From: an uncultured Candidatus Poseidoniales archaeon | Lineage (GTDB): Archaea; Thermoplasmatota; Poseidoniia; Poseidoniales; Poseidoniaceae | Direction of reading: 5' to 3' | DNA length: 64,000 nucleotides | Assembly (NCBI GenBank): GCA_905182125.1 | Contig: CAJJAV010000003.1 | Location: 62,001-126,000 of the forward strand | Shown: positions 52,148 to 64,000 of the stretch, in pieces | Numbering within the stretch: position 1 is the first letter of the stretch | Layout: each line of letters starts with the position of its first letter | Position numbers and translations under genes: made by a program | The notes under the pieces: generated by a model | Database searches by the model: none | Told to the model about the DNA's origin: nothing | Seen by the model: only the letters and a program-made list of their open reading frames with translations

Positions 52148-52894
52148 ATGGGCGTCGACCGAATGCAATGGGGAGCCGAAGACTGGCAATTCGCAGACCT
52201 CCACATGCCTGACGACCCATCTCCGTTCAAGAACGCCGCAGGGACGCCATGCGTGATGCTCATCCATGGAGGATTCTGGAAGACTGAGTGGACGAGCGAC
52301 TTAATGCGACCCATTGCTGATGATTTGGCAGAAGCTGGAATCGCTGCTTGGAACATCGAGTTCAAACGATGGAGTGAGGACGATGAAGGCGTATGGATGG
52401 ACACACTTTCTGATGTGCTTCGCGCATGGGGTCAACTGGCCCTGCTCCCAGGCATCGACGTCAGACGTTCAATGATCATGGGCCATTCTGCTGGAGGTCA
52501 TCTGGCGTTGATGCTGGCTGCTAAGGCCGAGCGACGCCCATTGCTAACCATTGCTCAAGCACCCATCACAGATTTGATCGGTGCAGACAGGGCCAACCTT
52601 TCTGATGACGGGGACGCTGTACGAAAGTGGATCGGATCGACCCCTGAAGAGTCCCCTGAGTTGTGGCGTCAATTGAATCCAGTGGACAACCCCGCTGACG
52701 CAGCCATCCTCCTTGTTCATGGTAAACGGGATGTGGACGTGCCAAAGGAACAATCCGAAACCTATGCGAGGGTCATGAAAGCCAAAGGCGTTGAAGTTCA
52801 GAAACTCTGGCTCCCTGGTGACCACTATTCCATCATTGATGTGGCCAGCGATGATTGGCTGGTCCAACTGAACGCCATTCAGGATTGGCTTTGA
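52148..52894 (+). CDS. alpha/beta hydrolase, kynurenine-formamidase/BD-FAE-like
   Basis: MLIHGGFWKTEW oxyanion motif, IMGHSAGGHLALML nucleophile elbow, LLVHGKRDVDVP and GDHYSIID acid/His motifs. Confidence 0.75.
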   Translation: MGVDRMQWGAEDWQFADLHMPDDPSPFKNAAGTPCVMLIHGGFWKTEWTSDLMRPIADDLAEAGIAAWNIEFKRWSEDDEGVWMDTLSDVLRAWGQLALLPGIDVRRSMIMGHSAGGHLALMLAAKAERRPLLTIAQAPITDLIGADRANLSDDGDAVRKWIGSTPEESPELWRQLNPVDNPADAAILLVHGKRDVDVPKEQSETYARVMKAKGVEVQKLWLPGDHYSIIDVASDDWLVQLNAIQDWL

Positions 52895-52938
52895 ACGGCC
52901 ATCCCAAGACCTATGACGAAGCACCTACTGCGGTTGGT

Positions 52939-53754
52939 ATGGACCTGCTCGGAGATGACTTCCCCTACGCCGCAACGGCACTTCAAGGAAAGCACGCATT
53001 GGTATGCGGTGCGAGCAAAGGCATCGGGGAAGCCACTGCCAAAATGATGGCAAAGGCTGGAGCAAACGTCACCGTGTGCGCTCGCAACACAGAGGCACTC
53101 GCTGCTTTGTGCGCCGAACTTTCTGAACTTGGTCCGGGTGAGCACACGAGCTTACCCCTTGACCTCGAAGACAGCGATGCAATCATCGCAGCCATTCCAG
53201 TCCTTCTCGAACAAAGAGGCCCGGTTCATATATTGATCAACAATGCAGCAGGCCCACCCGGTGGTCCATTGCTTTCGAACACCCTCGATGAATTTGAAGC
53301 ACCATTCAAACGTCATCTCTATGCGGCTCACACATTGACCCAACTCCTCGCACCAGGCATGGAAGAAGTCGGCTATGGACGCATCATCCAAATCATCTCC
53401 ACCTCAGTCAAAGAGCCAATTCCAAACATTGGTTTGTCAAACACTCTTCGTGGTGCTGTGGCTTCGTGGGCCAAGACTCTGTCCCGTGAATTGGCACCGT
53501 GCATCACCATCAACAACGTGCTCCCTGGGTTCACAAACACGGGCCGGCTCGGATCTTTAGCAGCATCGATTCAAGAACGAACTGGAAAGTCGCTTGATGA
53601 AGTCCAATCTGGTTGGTTGAGTCAAGTTCCTATCGAACGCTTGATCGATCCCTTGGAAACAGCATCCGCAATTTCCTTTTTGGCACTGCCAGCATCAGGT
53701 GGCATCCGCGGGGTCAGCCTTGCAGTTGACGGTGGACGGCTCCGAAGCATCTGA
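52939..53754 (+). CDS. short-chain dehydrogenase/reductase
   Basis: ALVCGASKGIGEATAKMMA, NNAAGPPGG, IIQIISTSV...; C-terminal FLALPASGGIRGVSLAVDGG. Confidence 0.88.
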   Translation: MDLLGDDFPYAATALQGKHALVCGASKGIGEATAKMMAKAGANVTVCARNTEALAALCAELSELGPGEHTSLPLDLEDSDAIIAAIPVLLEQRGPVHILINNAAGPPGGPLLSNTLDEFEAPFKRHLYAAHTLTQLLAPGMEEVGYGRIIQIISTSVKEPIPNIGLSNTLRGAVASWAKTLSRELAPCITINNVLPGFTNTGRLGSLAASIQERTGKSLDEVQSGWLSQVPIERLIDPLETASAISFLALPASGGIRGVSLAVDGGRLRSI

Positions 53755-54843
53755 TCATCGGCGTATGTCAAACCACACCGGGTAGTGATCCGAAACACTG
53801 CTGTTGTTGAACACTTCATCGATGCCCCAAACGCCCGTGAGACGACCGCTAAGATCGCCGTTGGTTAGAATCCGGTCGTACGCACATGAGCTCTGAGCGA
53901 CGGTGGTGTCGGCATCGTTGCCAACCAGCCAAGTGTAATTCCCCCCGGCCAGTGCAGAATTGGCAAGGTCTTGTTCAGAAGCATACGAACAATCGGCGTT
54001 GAAGTCACCTAGCAAAACCAGATCTTCTTCATCCGGATGTTCAGCAAGGTAGGTTGTGGCAACCTCATTCATGGCATTGATCTCCTCCATTGCCGCTGCA
54101 GGTTTGGTGTGGACTGTAATGAGGCTCAAATCGAATGAGGTCGGCTGACCAGTGGCGTTCAGCAAAGCGAACTGGGCTTGGAATGGCTCACGCTGGAAAA
54201 GGTCTTTTTCGCTGTCGTTGAACAACGAACCATTGCCAATTGGTTCAAACACAGTGGTGTTGTAATAGAAGGCATACTGCTCTTGTGAGGTTCGATCGTC
54301 TTCTTGCTGACCTGAACGAGGGCTAAGCACCATGGCCCATTCGGCTTCACTCTCATTGTTGATGGCGTCGAGGAAATCATACGGGACGGTTTGATCGATG
54401 TCCTTGATTTCTTGAATGGCAACGAGGTCGTAACGTAAGACGGTGTCAACCAGCACAGAAATGACCTCAGGTTTGCCCATTTTGGTTTCGCCGAACACCT
54501 TGATGTTGAAGGTTGCAATCCGGGCGACTTCCGACCGATTCAACTCGGGAGAGCGAGCATCATCCTCGCCACCCGGCGATGTGGAATTCATGCTGGTGTT
54601 CTCAACTTCGACAGGAACGGCAACATAGACGACTTGAGCATCATCATGGGTGAGCATTGTTTGCAGAGCCAGCGGTGCAAGGATCAGGATTGCTGCAAAA
54701 CTGAGCCCTTGCAAGTAACCATCGTACTTACCCATAGCAGGGGCTAACGCCCCGTGCGTATGAAGGTTCATCGAAAGGAGGGCCCAAGAGATATGTTCTT
54801 GACGCGGAGGACCCGCCGTCGAACATGGACGGCGAGGTAACAC
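53755..54843 (-). CDS. membrane-anchored/secreted DNase I-like endonuclease
   Basis: ATFNIKVFGETK, VAIQEIKD, QYAFYYN, REPFQAQF, ITVHTKP, LGDFNADCSY, CAYDRIL, SDHYPVWFDI; N-terminal TM segment. Confidence 0.85.
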   Translation of the reverse strand: MLPRRPCSTAGPPRQEHISWALLSMNLHTHGALAPAMGKYDGYLQGLSFAAILILAPLALQTMLTHDDAQVVYVAVPVEVENTSMNSTSPGGEDDARSPELNRSEVARIATFNIKVFGETKMGKPEVISVLVDTVLRYDLVAIQEIKDIDQTVPYDFLDAINNESEAEWAMVLSPRSGQQEDDRTSQEQYAFYYNTTVFEPIGNGSLFNDSEKDLFQREPFQAQFALLNATGQPTSFDLSLITVHTKPAAAMEEINAMNEVATTYLAEHPDEEDLVLLGDFNADCSYASEQDLANSALAGGNYTWLVGNDADTTVAQSSCAYDRILTNGDLSGRLTGVWGIDEVFNNSSVSDHYPVWFDIRR

Positions 54844-55661
54844 CTGACCAAGCTCGGCGGATTTTGGACATGCTCACCGAGGGTGGGGCGATGGAAGACA
54901 TCAACACGTCACTCGCACTTCGACTCATTCCGCTCGCCGTTGAATTGGAAGACCAAGCGCTTGCTGACCGCTTGCTCGAGCATGCAAAAACCAATGCCAC
55001 CGACAGCGTCGAAGAAGGCTGGGCTGCGTTTGAACAACTGAAAATGGAAGACGCTACCATCGATGCGTTATCAGAACTCTCCGCCCAATCAGAAACCATC
55101 GATTCAGGCGAAGCACTGGCCGCTGCAGTTTCCCATCACGTCGCTTTGATTCACATGGCCAACGAATCCTATGAAGAAGCACAAATGTTCGCCAACCGTT
55201 CACTGCGTCTGCGAGAGATGGTGAAGGACAACAGTGGCCTTGTGTATGGTTTGGCTTTGGTTGAGGCTCTCGCTAAGAAGCAGCACAACCACGAAACAGC
55301 GCTCGTTCACGGGTCAAGGCGCATTGAATTGCTGATTGATTTGAAAGACGAGGAAGGGCAGATGGAAGCCATGGCCGACATGGGTCACAGTCAAGCAACC
55401 CTCGGGCAGTTTGATGCCGCCAAAGATTTGTACGGTCAATCCCTTGATTTGGCACTCGTCCTCGAAGATCTCTCCGGCCAACTGGTTGCTCGTTGGGGAC
55501 TGGCAGACATAGCAGAAATCGAAGAAGATTACGAAACTGCAATGCTCCAACTCTCCGATTGCCTTCACGCCTTCATCAACGCTGGCCTTCCGACGCCCCT
55601 CGCTGTGCGTGAACGAATAGAAGCCCTCACGAGTTTCAAGCCCCCGGCCAGGAAAGAGTGA
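54825..55661 (+). CDS. TPR-like helical repeat protein
   Basis: Repeated amphipathic helix pairs, e.g. ALIHMANESYEEAQMFANRSLRLREMV, MGHSQATLGQFDAAKDLYGQSLDLAL. Confidence 0.7.
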   Translation: MDGEVTPDQARRILDMLTEGGAMEDINTSLALRLIPLAVELEDQALADRLLEHAKTNATDSVEEGWAAFEQLKMEDATIDALSELSAQSETIDSGEALAAAVSHHVALIHMANESYEEAQMFANRSLRLREMVKDNSGLVYGLALVEALAKKQHNHETALVHGSRRIELLIDLKDEEGQMEAMADMGHSQATLGQFDAAKDLYGQSLDLALVLEDLSGQLVARWGLADIAEIEEDYETAMLQLSDCLHAFINAGLPTPLAVRERIEALTSFKPPARKE

Positions 55662-55729: not shown

Positions 55730-56986
55730 GTGCCACCTATGGACCACGACATCTTCTTCTCCATCAGCCAGACCCCGGATGCTGCGGGTCAAGTGCCTTC
55801 AGAGAACGAAATGTTCACCCACTATTTCCAACAGCTGGAGTGTGCAGATCGCCTTGGCTTTGGCGTCGGATGGATTGCTCAGGCCCACCTCTCCACTGAG
55901 ACACAAAAGAGCAATTCCCGCCCAGTAGTACCTCATTGGCAAGGTGAGGTCGGCCTCTGTACGGATTTCCCACAACTGGCCATGGAATCGTTCCGAAGAA
56001 CACGTTCGATTGAAATCGGTAGCGCTGTTGTGTCGATATTAGCCTCAGGCGGACCGATTGCTCAGGCAGAACGAATTGCCAACACACTCCAACTGCACGG
56101 CTTGGATCCAAATGAAACTCGTAAACTCCACATTGGATTCTCTGCTGGTCGTTTCGAGTTCATGGCCCGTCCTTATGGGATTGTACCAAGGAACGCCATC
56201 GAAGAAGCTGCATGGCCGGCATTACGTGGTCAAATATTCATGGAAGCAGGTGACATTTTCCTCCGACTTCTACGCGGTGATGTTCTCAATTCTGAACAGA
56301 CCTATGAGACCGTCCTCACCCGAAGCAACTTTCGATCCGATGAGGATTGGGTGAATGTCCAAAATGCCGCCATCGAATTCGAAGGGCTGGATTCTGCTCC
56401 TGAACGAGTTCATATCCCAAAGCGCTACGTCTTTGAAGACCTAAAAATCATCCCGAAAAACTTCCGCAGAGAACTCTTGGAGTTGGTCGCGGGAACGCAT
56501 GACTCAACGGCTCAAACCTTCCTCAACACCGTGTTGCCAGTGAAGGTATTCAACCTCTCGATCACCAAACCAGAAGTCATTGAAGCAACCCACCAACGAA
56601 TGTCCGAAGTGTTCCATCCATCGGGAGGTGCATGGCAACGCCGAGACATGCCACGAACTTCTTTTGTCTTCTTGAACGCCGAAGCGGCGTTGTCGCCAGA
56701 GGAGCAAAGTGCGGCTGCACATGCCGAAGCAGATGCAGCACTTGGAGCGTACTGGAACGCACTGGAAGGGACCATCGATCCGAGCAAAGTCAGCAATGCA
56801 GCGAACAATGCTCTCATTGGCAACGCAGAAGAAATTGCACAACAAATCATCGAACGGTTTCATCCCGAGGACAGGATCATGGCTTGGTTTGACTTTTTCA
56901 ATCATGATTCAGACCGTGTGTGCCGGAACATGACCGCTTACATGGAGCAAGTTGTCCCGCTTGTCGAGTCAATGTTGAACAAGTGA
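55730..56986 (+). CDS. LLM-class (luciferase-like) flavin-dependent oxidoreductase
   Basis: HYFQQLECADRLGFGVGWIAQAHLS, SIEIGSAVVSILASGGPIAQAERIANTLQLHG, LHIGFSAGRFEF. Confidence 0.82.
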   Translation: MPPMDHDIFFSISQTPDAAGQVPSENEMFTHYFQQLECADRLGFGVGWIAQAHLSTETQKSNSRPVVPHWQGEVGLCTDFPQLAMESFRRTRSIEIGSAVVSILASGGPIAQAERIANTLQLHGLDPNETRKLHIGFSAGRFEFMARPYGIVPRNAIEEAAWPALRGQIFMEAGDIFLRLLRGDVLNSEQTYETVLTRSNFRSDEDWVNVQNAAIEFEGLDSAPERVHIPKRYVFEDLKIIPKNFRRELLELVAGTHDSTAQTFLNTVLPVKVFNLSITKPEVIEATHQRMSEVFHPSGGAWQRRDMPRTSFVFLNAEAALSPEEQSAAAHAEADAALGAYWNALEGTIDPSKVSNAANNALIGNAEEIAQQIIERFHPEDRIMAWFDFFNHDSDRVCRNMTAYMEQVVPLVESMLNK

Positions 56987-56995
56987 GGTGATGCA

Positions 56996-58111
56996 ATGGC
57001 GATTGAACATGACACTCCATCCGCAGTTGAACCGGGCCGGCCTGGCAGTGCATTGTACCCAGATAGCCCTCTTGGTGAAAAGGTCGAAGGAATCCCAACC
57101 GGGCGCGATGTTGCTTGGGAACCCCTCGTCGATTACCGACGAAACGGTGTGTCGGAAACCACGATTCATGGCGCCGTCGCTTGGGCACACGGCGATGAGG
57201 TGATCCACTCTTTTGGAGGAAACGTTCTGTGTTATGGCCGGTCGATGATGAAGCCGTTCATGCTCAAGGCTTTCACCGAAGAATTGGCTGACGCATCTTG
57301 GGAACAAAAAGCAATTTCCGTGGCATCACACAACGGCGACACCGAACACGTCGCAGCAGCTCAATCACTGCTCGTCGAGGAAGAATGGCCACTGATGCTC
57401 ACGCCACTCGATGTCCCTCTGATTCAATTTGGCCGTCAAGTACGTCGTCCACGCCGATGGTTCCACACCTGCTCCGGTGAGCATGCTGCGATCCTTCATG
57501 GCTGCCGCAAGAAAGGGTGGAACCGAGCGGGCTACACGCTGCCAACCCACGAAGTCTTCCATGCCTATATGGCGGAAATACGCTCCTACCTCGGACCGGA
57601 TTGGAAACCCCTGCGCGTTGCCAAAGATGGCTGCGGACTGCCAACAGTTTCCAACACCGTTTCTGAACTGGCGCAAATCTATGCAGGCTTGGTTCGCGAC
57701 AAAGACAAGGATTGGATTTGGGAAGCCATGGTTCGCCATCCAGATCTCGTCGGTGGATTCAATCGACTTGATTCCACTGTCCTCAAAGCAGGTGAAGGCA
57801 AGGTCATCGCCAAGGAAGGGGCTGATGGTTTGCTGGGTTTAGCAATCGAGCATCCAGATTATCCCAAAGGCCTAGGGATTGTCGTCAAAATCGCTCACGG
57901 CTGGAACTCCCAAGCAACATGGTATGTCGCACGGGCGTTGCTCGGAGTGTTAGGGATCAACCTCCGGAACCCCTATCCACTTCACAGGCAGAAAGCCTTC
58001 ATTGTCCCTGGGATTGTACCCGAACGCTACCTTGAGCGGCTTGAAACCCTCCCCACATGGGATGAATGGGACCCTGACCAAGACCGATGGTTGTACGATG
58101 TGGAGGTTTGA
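56996..58111 (+). CDS. asparaginase II family protein
   Basis: GRSMMKPFMLKAF, AISVASHNGDTEHV, HTCSGEHAAILHGCRKKGW, KDGCGLPTVSNTVSELA. Confidence 0.8.
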   Translation: MAIEHDTPSAVEPGRPGSALYPDSPLGEKVEGIPTGRDVAWEPLVDYRRNGVSETTIHGAVAWAHGDEVIHSFGGNVLCYGRSMMKPFMLKAFTEELADASWEQKAISVASHNGDTEHVAAAQSLLVEEEWPLMLTPLDVPLIQFGRQVRRPRRWFHTCSGEHAAILHGCRKKGWNRAGYTLPTHEVFHAYMAEIRSYLGPDWKPLRVAKDGCGLPTVSNTVSELAQIYAGLVRDKDKDWIWEAMVRHPDLVGGFNRLDSTVLKAGEGKVIAKEGADGLLGLAIEHPDYPKGLGIVVKIAHGWNSQATWYVARALLGVLGINLRNPYPLHRQKAFIVPGIVPERYLERLETLPTWDEWDPDQDRWLYDVEV

Positions 58112-58113
58112 AG

Positions 58114-59565
58114 ATGCAAGAGGTGTTCAACTACATCGATGGTCTATTTTCTCCATCTGTCGATGGTGGACACCTCGAAAACCTCAATCCCGCAACGGGT
58201 GAAGTCATTTCGACCATCCCCCGTTCGCTTCAAGCAGATGTGGAACACGCAGCGAGTGCAGCACTCAGGGCCCAACCAGCATGGAACGCACTGAGCCTTG
58301 AACAACGGGCATTGTGGCTTGATCGCATTGCGGATGCCCTCGAGGAAAAGCATGAGCACATTGCCCAATCTGAATCCCTAGACACTGGAAAACCAATCGC
58401 TCTTGCTCGACGCGTTGATGCTGCCCGTTCGGTGGATAATTTCCGATTCTTTGCAGAATTTGCAAGGGAACAAACGGAAATGACCTTCAAAATGGACGAT
58501 GCTATGAACTATGTTCATCGAAATGGACTCGGGGTGGTTGGATTGATCACGCCGTGGAACCTTCCGCTTTATTTGCTCTCATGGAAGGTCGCCCCCGCCT
58601 TGTTGATGGGCAACACCGTTGTTGCCAAACCAAGCGAACTGACGCCGCTCACCGCCAATATTTTGGCAGAAACTCTGCATGAACTCAACCTACCAAAGGG
58701 GGTGTTCAACCTGGTCCATGGACTTGGGCCTGAAGTTGGTCAAGCTATCCTCGAGCACCCTGGAATCAAGGGTATTTCCTTCACCGGCGGTACCGCTACA
58801 GGGCGAATTGTTGCCGCCACAGCCGCACCCATGTTCAAGAAACTCTCACTGGAACTCGGCGGAAAGAATGCCACCATCATCTTGGACGATGCTGATCTGG
58901 ACATTGCTGTCAAAGGCGCAGTCCGTGCGGCGTTTACAAACTCTGGACAAGTGTGTTTGTGCGGCTCACGTTTGCTTGTTCAATCATCCATTGCCGATGC
59001 CTTCCTACCCGCCTTCATCGCAGAAGTTGAAGCCATGAACATCGGGGCGCCGAGCGATGAGACTTCTCAAATCAGCTCAATCATTTCGAGGGAACATCTC
59101 CACAAAGTCGAGTCATACATCGAACTCGCACTCCAGGAAGGTGGCGACATCTTAACGGGAGGAACACGGGCAATGACTGGACCAGTTGGACCTGATGCTC
59201 ACGGTGCGTACTTGGCACCCACCGTCATCGGTGGACTGAGTCATCTGTCCCGGTGTGCGACCGAGGAAATTTTTGGTCCAGTGGTCACCGTTCACATTTT
59301 TGACACTCTTGAACAAGCCACAGAAATGGCGAACGCTACTGAATATGGTTTGGCGGGTTCAATCTGGACAAAGGATGTTGCACAAGGCCGAGCTCTTGCT
59401 CAAACCATCGACACCGGCATCGTATGGATCAACACATGGCTGCATCGAGACTTACGCACGCCCTTTGGTGGAGTGAAGAACTCTGGCGTGGGTCGTGAAG
59501 GCGGGCAGTGGTCTCTTGGATTCTTTTCTGAGACCACCAACATCTGTGTTATCGACCCTAAATGA
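58114..59565 (+). CDS. aldehyde dehydrogenase, 2-aminomuconate/2-hydroxymuconate semialdehyde dehydrogenase-like
   Basis: LITPWNLPLYLLSWKVAPALLMGNTVVAKPSELTP, FTGGTATGRIV, LELGGKNATIILDDADLD, NSGQVCLCGSRLLVQ; close to the muconic semialdehyde DH branch by eye. Confidence 0.85.
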   Translation: MQEVFNYIDGLFSPSVDGGHLENLNPATGEVISTIPRSLQADVEHAASAALRAQPAWNALSLEQRALWLDRIADALEEKHEHIAQSESLDTGKPIALARRVDAARSVDNFRFFAEFAREQTEMTFKMDDAMNYVHRNGLGVVGLITPWNLPLYLLSWKVAPALLMGNTVVAKPSELTPLTANILAETLHELNLPKGVFNLVHGLGPEVGQAILEHPGIKGISFTGGTATGRIVAATAAPMFKKLSLELGGKNATIILDDADLDIAVKGAVRAAFTNSGQVCLCGSRLLVQSSIADAFLPAFIAEVEAMNIGAPSDETSQISSIISREHLHKVESYIELALQEGGDILTGGTRAMTGPVGPDAHGAYLAPTVIGGLSHLSRCATEEIFGPVVTVHIFDTLEQATEMANATEYGLAGSIWTKDVAQGRALAQTIDTGIVWINTWLHRDLRTPFGGVKNSGVGREGGQWSLGFFSETTNICVIDPK

Positions 59566-59615
59566 TTCGATGCCGATGAACACATCTTCAAAAGCACATC
59601 GTCGCTAATGATGTC

Positions 59616-60347
59616 ATGACCAGCCAAGCCACCCTCCCATTGTTTGTCTTGCCCATGGTGTTGATGCCAGGGGAAGTACAGGAACTCAGGGTGTTCGAAC
59701 CCCGTTATCGACAGATGCTCGATGATTGTGTCCTCGACAACAAAAACTTCGGGCTGGTCATGAACGATCCGTTTGAACTCACGAACCATTGGGATGGACC
59801 AAGAAGCCACGGTTGCGAAGCAGAAATCTTAGAACACGACACCAAAGGAAGCAATCACTTTCTCTCCATCATTGGTCGACGTCGCTTTGTCGTCGAGGAT
59901 GTCATTGCCCCCGCTCTTCCACCTTTTGAACACCCTTCGATGGAAGCGTTGAACGAAGATGACGGGTTATATCCAGATCTTCAAACGTTGCTCAGCCACG
60001 TGCCGGAAGCATCAACCCATGAGAAGTTGTACATCGCAGCAAAGGTGCGCTACTATGAGGATGAAGCACCCACCAGTGATGAACATCAAACCATGTTGCG
60101 TGAGATTCTTGATGGCGTCTTGAAGCGAATTGGAGCCATCCTTCGCATCGATGACATCACCCTCGATTCGTGGGTCTCAGAGCGCGTTGACCACGTTATT
60201 GATGAAAGCCCAACCTCGGTGTTCACGGTCGCTGCTCTCGTCCTCAACGGCCTTGAAGCGAAGCAACAAGTTCTCGCAAGTGCTGATGCTGAGGAGGCAT
60301 TGGCTGAATTAAATCACCAATTGTCTTCATTCTATGAGGAAGAATGA
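59616..60347 (+). CDS. stand-alone Lon N-terminal (LON substrate-binding) domain protein
   Basis: [42 protein letters not shown]; no ATPase or protease domain. Confidence 0.8.
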
Positions 60348-60399
60348 GCCTACAATCTGCCGGCGAGGGTTTCAAATCACCCCCAACCGTGGGAGAACC

Positions 60400-61221
60400 A
60401 TGTCCGTACATCGCAATGCGCGTAAAGTAACGACACACACACTTCTGGAAATGAAGCGTGCTGAGGAAAAAATCACCATGCTCACCGCATACGATTATTC
60501 CCTAGCGAAGTTGGTTGACCAAGCAGGCGTCGATGTGATCCTCGTTGGAGACTCTGCCTCCAACGTTATGGCAGGACAAGTCACAACTGTACCAATGACC
60601 TTGGATCACATGATCTATCACGCACAATGTGTCCAACGGGCCGTTGACCGAGCGTTGATTGTCGTCGATATGCCATTTGGAACCTATCAAGGAAACTCTG
60701 CCATCGCCCTTGAATCGGCCATCCGCATCATGAAGGAAGCTGAAGGCCACGCTGTGAAACTTGAGGGTGGTTCTGAAATCATCCAATCCGTCGAGCGTAT
60801 TTTAACCGCTGGAATACCAGTGATGGGGCACCTCGGCCTCACCCCGCAATCCATCTACAAGTTTGGCACATACACCGTTCGCGCCAAAGAGGAAGAAGAA
60901 GCTGAAAAATTGATTTCGGATGCGAAATTGCTTGAGGCGACAGGCTGCTTTGCTATTGTCCTTGAGAAAATACCTCGAGAATTGGCGAAGCGGGTTCAAG
61001 AATCAATCTCTATCCCTACCATCGGTATTGGGGCAGGTCCTGACTGCGATGGACAAGTTTTGGTGCTTCACGACTTGCTTGGCATCACCATGGACTTTTC
61101 ACCTCGGTTCCTGCGTCGTTACCTCAACCTTGCAGAAGACATCAACTCAGCAATCACCAACTATTGCGAAGATGTACGGTCCGGAGACTTCCCGAATGAT
61201 TCGGAAAGTTACACCTCGTGA
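60400..61221 (+). CDS. panB: 3-methyl-2-oxobutanoate hydroxymethyltransferase
   Basis: [79 protein letters not shown]. Confidence 0.95.
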
Positions 61222-61806
61222 TCAGAAGATGTTGTACAGCACAACAGCGCCTGCGAAGGCACCTAAATCGATGCCCATGGCATGCCATATGCCGTACGTA
61301 AACGGAGGCAACTGACGGCGTCCCCACATCATTGAAACGGTAACCCAGGCCAAGAAGATGGCGTACATGCCACAAAACAAAGCACCCCAGCCAGACAACC
61401 AAACCACGCACAATGGAAGAGCGAGAGCGGCGAATCCTAAACTGTATTCAAAGCAGCGCTTGAACGAAGTGTGAACCAGGAGACGGTAGGTCAACGGAGA
61501 GAAAAACAAGGCCAAGAGCAAACCGAATTGGACCGGATTTGGCAGGTAGATTGAATCAAAATTCGATGAGTAGTTTTCCCAAGCACTTCCAAGCACTGAA
61601 CCAAACAAGGCAGGGGCAAGGATGTGCTTCAGACCGGTCTTCAGGTCATCTTTGGTGGACAGCACTCTTTGCTCATCCACGATGATGCTCACCCCGTCCT
61701 CCATGACCTGTCGAAATCGCCGCCTTGTTTGAGCCTTGGGTCCAACATGTTTGCAGGGGTGAAACGCCGATGTCGATATATCCCCCAAGCGCGTGGCTCT
61801 GTCCAT
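61222..61806 (-). CDS. hypothetical multi-pass membrane protein
   Basis: Four or more hydrophobic helices; start probably internal near 61704 because of overlap with the next gene. Confidence 0.55.
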   Translation of the reverse strand: MDRATRLGDISTSAFHPCKHVGPKAQTRRRFRQVMEDGVSIIVDEQRVLSTKDDLKTGLKHILAPALFGSVLGSAWENYSSNFDSIYLPNPVQFGLLLALFFSPLTYRLLVHTSFKRCFEYSLGFAALALPLCVVWLSGWGALFCGMYAIFLAWVTVSMMWGRRQLPPFTYGIWHAMGIDLGAFAGAVVLYNIF

Positions 61807-62707
61807 GACGCAAGGTGAAATCGTAGCGGGTTGTTTGGCACCCCATCCTCCTCATCTGGTCTATGCCGAGAACCCACCTCAAAACGAACCTGTTGCAGAA
61901 GGCGGTTGGGAACAACTTCGATGGGGCTATGAACGCTTGAGAGATTCCCTCAAAGATGTGGAATATGATGCGATTGTGTTGCTATCACCCCATTGGCAAA
62001 CCTACGTCGGAACCCATTTCCTCGGTCTTCCGAATTTCAAGAGCCTCTCCGTCGACCCTGTGTTTCCAAACCTGTTCCGCTACCACTATGATCTCAACAT
62101 CGACGTGGACTTGACTTCAAAGATTCATGACAAAGCCGCAGAAGCAGGCTTGGCTGTGAAAATGATGGAAAATCCAGACTTCCGCGTGGACTATGGCACC
62201 ATCACCACCGGCCACATGTTTAATCCAGCATGGGACAAGCCGCTCGTGGTCATCTCGAGCAACCGTTCAAGGGATTACTATTCGGTTGAAGTCATGCAAG
62301 AAATGATGATTGAACTCGGCAAAGTGACCCGCGAAGCTATTTTGGAAAGTGGCAAGAAGGTAGTCGTTATTGCGAGCAACTCCCTTTCACACCGCCACTT
62401 TACCACTGAGTCGGCCATTCCAGAAGACATGAGCAAAGAGCACATTACGAGCCATGCCATGCATCTGTGGGACATGCGCATGATCAACTACTTCCGCACA
62501 GGCCAGGCGCAACGAATCCTCGACGAAATGCCTGAGTTCACTGAGCAAGCCATTGCCGAAAGCGATGGTGGAGGCTTGTCGTGGCTCCTTTCAACCCTTG
62601 ACACGCCAAGTTACCCTGCAACACTGCACGGGTATGGAACGATCATCGGGACTGGAAACGCCATTGTCGAATGGCCGGAACGAGACCACAAGGAGGCGAA
62701 ACAATGA
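61805..62707 (+). CDS. class III extradiol ring-cleavage dioxygenase, catalytic (2-aminophenol 1,6-dioxygenase beta-like) subunit
   Basis: LAPHPPHLVYAENPPQNEPVAEGGWEQLRWGYERLRD, LLSPHWQTY, SNSLSHRHF, TGNAIVEWPERD. Confidence 0.82.
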   Translation: MTQGEIVAGCLAPHPPHLVYAENPPQNEPVAEGGWEQLRWGYERLRDSLKDVEYDAIVLLSPHWQTYVGTHFLGLPNFKSLSVDPVFPNLFRYHYDLNIDVDLTSKIHDKAAEAGLAVKMMENPDFRVDYGTITTGHMFNPAWDKPLVVISSNRSRDYYSVEVMQEMMIELGKVTREAILESGKKVVVIASNSLSHRHFTTESAIPEDMSKEHITSHAMHLWDMRMINYFRTGQAQRILDEMPEFTEQAIAESDGGGLSWLLSTLDTPSYPATLHGYGTIIGTGNAIVEWPERDHKEAKQ

Positions 62708-64000
62708 CCGAAGGTTCAATCGTTGGTTCGTTCATTGTCCCGGTCCACCCTCACACAGTGTTAGCCCCTGAACAAAATGAGGGCTGGCAACGTTTGCGAG
62801 ATGCTTTTGATGAAGCGGCTCAACGAATCAAGGACGCTGATGCAGATTTGCTGATCATCTATTCGACGACATGGCCGAGCATCATTGGCCACCAGATCCA
62901 AGCCGATCCGAATCCAGAATGGGTGATGGTGGACAATGACTTCCACGATCTCGGCTCGATTCCCTATTCATTCAACATCGATGCTGATTTTGCCCATGCC
63001 TGGAACGAAGCAAATGAGAAGCGTGGTTTGAAATCGCGAACCGTGAACTACACGGGTTTCCCCATCGATGTGGGTTCCGTCGTGGCCCTCAAATTACTGA
63101 ATCCTGACAACGCAATCCCAGCAGTCATTGTGTCCTCCAACGTCTATGCCAACCGCTCGGAAACCACGGTTCTTGCCAAATCATGCCTCGATGTGATCAA
63201 GGCCACCGGGCGTAAAGCGGTTGCAATTACTGCCATGTCCCTATCGAACAGAATGTTTACCGCCCCAATTGATCCGAAAGATGACCGGATTCATTCCTTG
63301 AAAGACGACGAATGGAATCGGAAGATCCTCGAGTTCCTCGGCGAGGGCCGTATGGAAGATGTTGGTCAACTCTCAAGAACCATTCACAAGCAAATCCGAG
63401 TCCAGAAAGTCGTTGCATTCAAACCGATGTGGTGGCTTTCAGGCATGAACGATAATCGCAACAACCTCAGTGGTGAAGTCCTCGCTTACGAAGCAATTCA
63501 CGGTGCTGGCGGGGCTGTGGTTCATCTTGATCCGACACCTTCAGGTGCAGGTGACAAAGAATACGATGAAGATGATGTCGAATTTTACAGTGGTGAGCGA
63601 AACGTGCTCGATGCTGAAGAAGAGCAGGAACTCATCGAGGAAGCAAAAAAACCAACCTCAGGCGGCCCTGAACTTTGGGAGCCGACAACTGGAGAGCACT
63701 CGGTCAACAGTGAAGCCGCACCAAAACCAGTGGGCATGTACCCCCACGCCCGAAAGGTCGGTGATTTGCTGTACCTGTCTGGAGTCGGACCACGGCAACC
63801 CGGAACAAACGCCATCCCCGGTGGACCAATCTGTGATGAGAACGGCAAGGCACTCGACTACGACATAAAAGCACAGACAAAAGCAGTTGTTGACAACATC
63901 ACACGGATTTTAGAAGAAGCCGGAGGATCCATCGAAGATGTCCTCGATGTGACCTCGTTCCTCGTCGATATGGATCGAGATTTCAGTGGTTACAATGAGG
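62704..64000 (+). CDS. extradiol dioxygenase alpha-like domain fused to RidA/2-aminomuconate deaminase-like domain (partial, runs off window)
   Basis: Hand-translated open frame MTEGSIVGSFIVPVHPHTVLAPEQNEGWQRLRDAF...IIYSTTWPSIIGHQ...AMSLSNRMF... then VGMYPHARKVGDLLYLSGVGPRQPGTNAIPGGP...; 4-nt overlap with upstream gene; absent from ORF track because it has no stop in the window. Confidence 0.82.
   Translation, partial: MTEGSIVGSFIVPVHPHTVLAPEQNEGWQRLRDAFDEAAQRIKDADADLLIIYSTTWPSIIGHQIQADPNPEWVMVDNDFHDLGSIPYSFNIDADFAHAWNEANEKRGLKSRTVNYTGFPIDVGSVVALKLLNPDNAIPAVIVSSNVYANRSETTVLAKSCLDVIKATGRKAVAITAMSLSNRMFTAPIDPKDDRIHSLKDDEWNRKILEFLGEGRMEDVGQLSRTIHKQIRVQKVVAFKPMWWLSGMNDNRNNLSGEVLAYEAIHGAGGAVVHLDPTPSGAGDKEYDEDDVEFYSGERNVLDAEEEQELIEEAKKPTSGGPELWEPTTGEHSVNSEAAPKPVGMYPHARKVGDLLYLSGVGPRQPGTNAIPGGPICDENGKALDYDIKAQTKAVVDNITRILEEAGGSIEDVLDVTSFLVDMDRDFSGYNE

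Follow-up and report, generated by a model that had tools for sequence, protein, structure and literature searches.

A gene cluster of Marine Group II archaea with a proposed route from kynurenine to 2-aminophenol

The stretch of DNA analyzed here (the window) covers 64,000 nucleotides, positions 62001-126000 of a contig from a 1.85 Mb draft genome of the archaeal order Poseidoniales (Marine Group II). Its right-hand part carries a gene cluster that is probably a tryptophan-catabolic core, reaching 2-aminophenol by a non-textbook route in which kynurenine is converted to 2-aminophenol and aspartate. With slightly less confidence, we regard this as a previously undescribed pathway, core to Marine Groups II and III and found in many bacterial phyla, which would combine a flavin mononucleotide (FMN)-dependent, luciferase-family kynurenine Baeyer-Villiger monooxygenase (BVMO) with a repurposed class 3 asparaginase. 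Neither the pathway nor a Baeyer-Villiger oxidation of kynurenine was found described in the open-access literature; subscription journals lay outside this search, and the novelty is provisional.

Results

Proposed Pathway

The preliminary description of the window was concerned with the interval 58114-64000. The most informative genes of the cluster lie outside it: the two open reading frames (ORFs) immediately 5' of the aldehyde dehydrogenase gene, encoding LLM and Asn2. The pathway genes of the window are the following:

52148..52894, forward strand: ABH, an alpha/beta hydrolase with HGGFW (BD-FAE/Abhydrolase families); candidate N-formylkynurenine deformylase (kynurenine formamidase role)
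52855..53754 (true start probably 52939), forward strand: SDR, a short-chain dehydrogenase/reductase (adh_short), conserved upstream of LLM
55730..56986 (ATG at 55739), forward strand: LLM, a luciferase-like flavin monooxygenase (Bac_luciferase family matches, AlphaFold, Foldseek); putative kynurenine BVMO
56996..58111, forward strand: Asn2, a class-3 (ReAV-type) asparaginase-like hydrolase (PF06089, 161 bits); putative hydrolase of the 2-aminophenol beta-aspartyl ester or anilide
58114..59565, forward strand: ALDH, a 2-aminomuconate 6-semialdehyde dehydrogenase-like protein (Aldedh, 540 bits)
61805..62707, forward strand: AmnB, catalytic beta subunit of a 2-aminophenol 1,6-dioxygenase-type extradiol dioxygenase (LigB; AmnB match)
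62704..64000 (RidA from ~63712), forward strand: AmnA, an alpha subunit without catalytic function, joined in one ORF to a RidA domain resembling 2-aminomuconate deaminase (AmnA and 6izh matches)

In the proposed pathway, tryptophan 2,3-dioxygenase (TDO) would convert tryptophan to N-formylkynurenine, from which a deformylase (ABH in the window, an FMT-like protein or KynB in relatives) would produce kynurenine. LLM would then carry out a Baeyer-Villiger reaction, placing an oxygen atom between the ketone and the aryl ring; the product, the beta-(2-aminophenyl) ester of L-aspartate, might also rearrange to the anilide N4-(2-hydroxyphenyl)-L-asparagine. Removal of the beta-aspartyl group by Asn2 would leave 2-aminophenol and L-aspartate. 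The ring of 2-aminophenol would be opened by AmnA and AmnB (AmnAB) to give 2-aminomuconate 6-semialdehyde, which ALDH would convert to 2-aminomuconate and the RidA domain would finally deaminate to 4-oxalocrotonate. The substrates given here for LLM, Asn2 and ABH are proposed ones, as is the place of deformylation, which might come after the Baeyer-Villiger step instead; the gene order is silent on this.

The ring of kynurenine, an aryl ketone, bears an ortho-amino group and is electron-rich, which should favour migration of the aryl group in a Baeyer-Villiger reaction. The chemistry of the proposal closes: the acyl part of the ester is the beta-aspartyl group that asparaginases act on, and the co-product is the substrate of AmnAB. 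No gene other than those of LLM and Asn2 bridges kynurenine and 2-aminophenol in these operons.

Ring-Opening and Aminomuconate Enzymes

The identity of the three features of the preliminary description is far beyond chance. It had announced a class III extradiol dioxygenase with His/His/Glu motifs, and the protein indeed belongs to the LigB family with its metal ligands kept. AmnB reaches 360 bits to 8ihg_A, a 2-aminophenol 1,6-dioxygenase beta subunit, and is ~53% identical to Comamonas CnbCb, of which all equivalents of His13, His62, His195 and Glu251 are retained. We take His/His/Glu to be the metal ligands and His195 to be catalytic, as in the known CnbCb-type enzyme. AmnB groups with its namesakes and not with MEMO1 or unrelated LigB proteins, and its predicted activity, judged from its sequence, is of the 2-aminophenol 1,6-dioxygenase type. 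The in-frame TGA within some AmnB matches is only a natural stop codon.

The adjoining ORF had been described as encoding a fusion of a coupled alpha-like subunit with a RidA domain and as running off the window. Rightward extension of the contig confirmed this organization, the ORF closing at ~64119 (L003:6705-8120). Its N-terminal half, AmnA, matches 3vsg_A with 137 bits and lacks the metal ligands. The closest RidA-family structure to the C-terminal domain in the Protein Data Bank (PDB) is the 2-aminomuconate deaminase 6izh (92-96 bits), with other RidA proteins scoring almost equally, at least for the unfused relative.

ALDH was likewise correctly assigned to the muconic-semialdehyde type: its nearest characterised relatives are 2-aminomuconate 6-semialdehyde dehydrogenases; of the eight PDB entries closest to it, seven are such enzymes (4u3w at 456 bits). 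It scores under the curated cut-off of the 2-hydroxymuconic semialdehyde dehydrogenase equivalog TIGR03216 (532 vs. 693 bits). Taken by their nearest relatives, AmnB, ALDH and RidA support the original reading of a 2-aminophenol/2-aminomuconate meta-cleavage pathway.

LLM and Asn2

The predicted structure of LLM has the luciferase/type II BVMO fold. The AlphaFold model, built with the window and genome-contig sequences, has a pLDDT of 92.7, and Foldseek relates it to luciferase-like monooxygenase structures (E 7.5e-14), bacterial luciferase among them, and to the type II BVMO 3,6-diketocamphane monooxygenase (4uwm, E 1.3e-10). RutA, SsuD and others are also among the fold matches. At the profile level, Bac_luciferase (PF00296) matches 13 of 15 members of the LLM family, with a best E of 5.8e-12. 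The FMNH2-dependent type II BVMOs include luciferases and diketocamphane monooxygenases (PMC8706424). LLM is proposed to act as a Baeyer-Villiger monooxygenase on kynurenine.

Actinobacteria have homologs of LLM with 45-48% identity to the protein of the window, in cultured Paractinoplanes and Amycolatopsis and in a Pseudonocardia metagenome-assembled genome (MAG) (L104, L105, L146); in Amycolatopsis antarctica, TDO lies ~1 kb upstream of the homolog. The LLM of a Streptomyces clavuligerus plasmid (49% identity) has no partner genes nearby and served as a search seed only. Viral contigs scanned with LLM and AmnB gave no matches.

The model of Asn2, of moderate confidence (pLDDT 78.5), matches the ReAV and ReAIV structures. 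The residue positions of ReAV were mapped onto Asn2 through pairwise alignment, and 22 sequences were compared. Alanine mutation of Arg47, Ser48, Lys51, Ser80 or Lys263 abolishes ReAV activity (PMC12292245); the equivalents of these five residues are identical in all 22 sequences, both Ser-Lys tandems being invariant. At the zinc site, Lys138 is replaced by Glu or Gln and the neighbouring Cys249 by Asp, again in 22/22, and Cys135 and Cys189 are kept in 19 of the 22. A retained nucleophile together with an altered recognition site fits an acyl group that is still beta-aspartyl and a leaving group other than ammonia. Asn2 may hence split the beta-aspartyl ester or anilide of 2-aminophenol.

Conservation and Gene Order in Poseidoniales

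Gene identities, conservation, operon structure and active-site residues were all read directly from the genomes. AmnB is present in 219 of the 244 genomes of the order; every one of the 22 genera has it, as does each of the 35 genomes with a completeness of 90% or more. LLM (59/60 genomes) and Asn2 (60/60) are encoded by adjacent genes. TDO is found in 229/244 genomes; in the genome of the window, it is encoded elsewhere. The tryptophan origin that the preliminary description had raised as a possibility is thereby strongly supported, as TDO is near-universal in the order and is operonic with an arylformamidase in bacteria.

Two blocks recur in 20 regions across the order and in further ones: [ABH or FMT-like]-SDR-LLM-Asn2-ALDH and AmnB-AmnA-RidA-permease. 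The window's family has the two side by side, with PanB and other genes inserted between them. In a second Poseidoniales family, the blocks are mostly separate (together in L048, L052, L053 and L092) and RidA is frequently its own gene. SDR is present in the cluster in both families.

Operons outside the Order

A scan of genome contigs with LLM yielded 414 relatives, of which 80 were retained: 25 are Poseidoniales loci flagged by the FMT-like gene, and the 55 others include at least one truncated Poseidoniales contig and about six Marine Group III loci. In these 55 loci, the genes near LLM are those of SDR (43), ALDH (40), Asn2 (38, directly downstream in 35), AmnB (25), TDO (23) and KynB (16). 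Operons of the type TDO-SDR-LLM-Asn2-ALDH-AmnB-AmnA/RidA-KynB occur in an uncultured bacterium (L125), Planctomycetota (L131, L117, L157), a proteobacterial MAG (L107) and Acidobacteriota (L106); in L107, L125 and L131, the entire set is consecutive on a single strand. TDO and KynB were recognised with TIGR03036 and TIGR03035, under the curated cut-offs of both; the four KynB proteins scored reach 188-208 bits to TIGR03035 (cut-off 223). Marine Group III (L149, L152, L171, L174, L179) has the order TDO-SDR-LLM-Asn2-ALDH-AmnB-AmnA-RidA-FMT. AmnA and RidA are fused in 13 of the 21 non-Poseidoniales loci holding both domains.

Every component resembles characterised AmnA, AmnB, ALDH and RidA, as would be expected if an archaeon had acquired an ordinary bacterial amn operon for 2-aminophenol or nitrobenzene, unconnected to tryptophan. 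This explanation is highly improbable: AmnB occurs almost throughout the order, and its tree places the classical proteobacterial amn sequences in one clade (99/90), separate from all LLM-operon and archaeal sequences. The Poseidoniales proteins are also closer to those of LLM operons (AmnB 54-70%, AmnA 50-63%, ALDH 46-65% identity) than to those of amn operons (51-54%, 29-33% and 43-45%, respectively), and no LLM or Asn2 was found in the plasmid amn operons examined (Burkholderia, Novosphingobium, Ensifer, Comamonas). From these sequence comparisons, the genes seem to have been transferred together, in one direction or the other.

One side observation concerns L120 (CAMCWU010000257.1), a 5.3 kb contig with SDR-LLM-ALDH labelled as a Klebsiella pneumoniae MAG, probably a mislabelled or contaminated bin.

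Near-Absence of Kynureninase and the Deformylase Slot

Two further genes of the canonical kynurenine pathway, those of kynureninase and 3-hydroxyanthranilate 3,4-dioxygenase, were sought directly in the genomes. Kynureninase (TIGR01814) exceeds the cut-off in one of 40 genomes of the order and in none of 30 LLM-locus genomes outside it; matches of 18-56 bits to this model were taken as other class V pyridoxal 5'-phosphate (PLP) enzymes. 3-Hydroxyanthranilate 3,4-dioxygenase (3-HAO, PF06052) exceeds the cut-off in one of 33 genomes tested, the same G013 in which kynureninase occurs. A reading as quinolinate/NAD biosynthesis was dropped, 3-HAO being absent from almost all genomes tested. Because kynureninase and 3-HAO are missing, the source of the 2-aminophenol-type substrate is probably not 3-hydroxyanthranilate; LLM and Asn2 seem to replace the two enzymes.

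A route through 3-hydroxykynurenine and 3-hydroxyanthranilate was weighed against this. LLM would be a kynurenine 3-hydroxylase, kynureninase would be diverged or unrecognised, AmnAB would act on 3-hydroxyanthranilate, and decarboxylation would lead to 2-aminomuconate semialdehyde and on to ALDH and RidA. TDO, the formamidase, the extradiol dioxygenase, the ALDH and RidA fit it equally well. We consider it unlikely, given the kynureninase counts above and the complete operons, which show no recurring PLP enzyme and no family beyond those named here in more than eight loci. Moreover, the partner of LLM is of the beta-aspartyl type, of which the PLP-dependent cleavage by kynureninase is not expected.

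G013, of the second family, encodes kynureninase (426 bits; L067, G013:C29:6106-7323) and 3-HAO (162 bits; L198, G013:C44:106547-106987) and also retains LLM and Asn2. It possibly acquired a quinolinate route or, for the short contig C29, is contaminated.

The slot beside SDR is filled by ABH in 26 and by an FMT-like protein in 33 of 60 order genomes, never by both, and by neither in one. Kynurenine formamidase (4e11) is one of the esterases that ABH matches weakly at the profile level. A concatenated LLM-Asn2-ALDH tree shows at least two switches between ABH and FMT, and in 16 of the 55 other loci a KynB-type arylformamidase stands in the cluster. As the two unrelated proteins alternate without overlap, the simplest reading is that they do the same job, the removal of the formyl group from N-formylkynurenine. 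The FMT-like protein (L040:2182-2907 and all second-family loci, L086-L097) has a formyltransferase fold (PF00551) with the catalytic Asn-x-His...Asp (motif INSHPGLLP...DTGD); it may transfer the formyl group back to tetrahydrofolate rather than yield free formate.

Observations Weighing against a Kynurenine BVMO

Several observations speak against the proposed roles of LLM and Asn2. The LLM of the window, by itself, has no significant Pfam match, and proteins of this fold also catalyse hydroxylation, desulfonation and F420 redox chemistry. No flavin reductase was recognised in the cluster. SDR is almost always present but has no step in the proposed route; it could provide reduced flavin or act after RidA, yet the locus L148 has SDR plus a complete lower set. 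The actinobacterial LLM homologs have no Asn2, AmnAB or other cluster genes nearby, except TDO in Amycolatopsis. In seven loci (L114, L120, L134, L142, L148, L156, L159), LLM occurs with ALDH and no Asn2 nearby, a statement on the locus only, as no genome-wide search for Asn2 was made. Finally, the 4-hydroxy-2-oxovalerate aldolase TIGR03217 exceeds the cut-off in none of 12 Poseidoniales genomes.

Some of these points would also suit a role of LLM and Asn2 on some other compound, such as another amide or a nitrogen heterocycle; the two would then share a cluster with the tryptophan/2-aminophenol genes because the breakdown of several nitrogenous aromatics is combined. The substrates of LLM enzymes are diverse (RutA and SsuD are among the fold matches), Asn2 on its own would be called an asparaginase, and the actinobacterial homologs occur without the other genes. 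This alternative is nevertheless improbable in view of the adjacency of LLM and Asn2 across the order and in 35 of the 55 other loci; without the two proteins, moreover, the link between kynurenine and 2-aminophenol lacks a gene.

A class V PLP enzyme, transcribed divergently, is encoded at L114:2281-3699; it belongs to PF00266, matches no kynureninase model of NCBIfam, and has relatives near LLM in L120 and L124. It sits by LLM loci without Asn2 and could be an alternative partner.

Lower Pathway

A lower-pathway decarboxylase, hydratase and aldolase had been anticipated to the right of AmnA-RidA. The extended contig did not bear this out: it shows a permease and none of these genes. With the aldolase missing in Poseidoniales, 4-oxalocrotonate must take another way; one speculation is its reduction to 2-oxoadipate, and all steps beyond 4-oxalocrotonate are proposals of this kind. 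The FAH protein of the order (37/40 genomes) is not claimed as an oxalocrotonate decarboxylase; it is single-domain, of FahD1-like size, and encoded among informational genes.

Outside the order, the TIGR03217 aldolase exceeds the cut-off in 4/17 LLM-bearing genomes. In a myxobacterial MAG (L148:5709-12660), 2-oxopent-4-enoate hydratase/decarboxylase, acetaldehyde dehydrogenase and aldolase genes lie directly upstream of SDR-LLM-ALDH, which ties LLM to the meta-cleavage of an aromatic; no Asn2 or AmnAB is found there within the sequence available.

Neighbouring Genes

Three further genes of the window stand among those of the pathway:

54825..55661, forward strand: TPR-like protein (synteny), a cluster neighbour kept mainly in one Poseidoniales family
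59616..60347, forward strand: Lon substrate-binding-domain protein between pathway genes; the slot lacks it in most loci, and it is probably unrelated
60334..61221, forward strand: PanB ketopantoate hydroxymethyltransferase (382 bits); its position shifts among relatives, and it is probably unrelated to the pathway

The permease right of the window (L003:8231-9913) is an amino-acid permease of the APC family with a C-terminal EF-hand pair. This unusual fusion adjoins AmnA-RidA in most of the order and is a candidate tryptophan/kynurenine transporter.

Discussion

Marine Group II archaea rank with the most abundant uncultured plankton of the surface ocean and are believed to feed on proteins and amino acids. 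A tryptophan ring-cleavage pathway present in nearly all of them would give their carbon and nitrogen economy a defined component that can be tested. If the proposal is true, the junction consists of two new enzyme activities, Baeyer-Villiger monooxygenation of kynurenine and hydrolysis of an aspartyl-aryl ester. It would also account for the way in which many bacteria that possess TDO and lack kynureninase complete tryptophan breakdown, and correct the annotation of hundreds of proteins labelled LLM oxidoreductase, asparaginase or RidA.

Comparison with Known Systems

In Pseudomonas and Comamonas, the amn/cnb pathway (for example that on pCNB of Comamonas testosteroni CNB-1) has its AmnA/AmnB, ALDH and RidA-type deaminase clustered, as here. 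The present AmnB, on the contrary, lies outside the classical clade, AmnA and RidA are often fused, and 2-aminophenol is proposed to derive from tryptophan via LLM and Asn2; the dmp-type lower set is not found in Poseidoniales (aldolase over the cut-off in 0/12).

With the kynurenine pathways (anthranilate and 3-hydroxyanthranilate branches), the cluster has TDO and a formylkynurenine deformylase in common and, with the 3-hydroxyanthranilate branch, the aminomuconate steps. It differs in the absence of kynureninase and 3-HAO and in the side chain, which is proposed to be lost as aspartate, not alanine.

LLM shares the predicted fold and a weak profile match with type II BVMOs and LuxAB, but is only 12-15% identical to them and forms a new subfamily, with an aryl ketone as the proposed substrate. 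Similarly, Asn2 has the fold and both Ser-Lys tandems of the class 3 L-asparaginases ReAIV and ReAV of Rhizobium etli, whereas its identity to them is ~23%, Lys138 of the zinc site and the neighbouring Cys249 are replaced in all 22 sequences, and the proposed leaving group is 2-aminophenol instead of ammonia.

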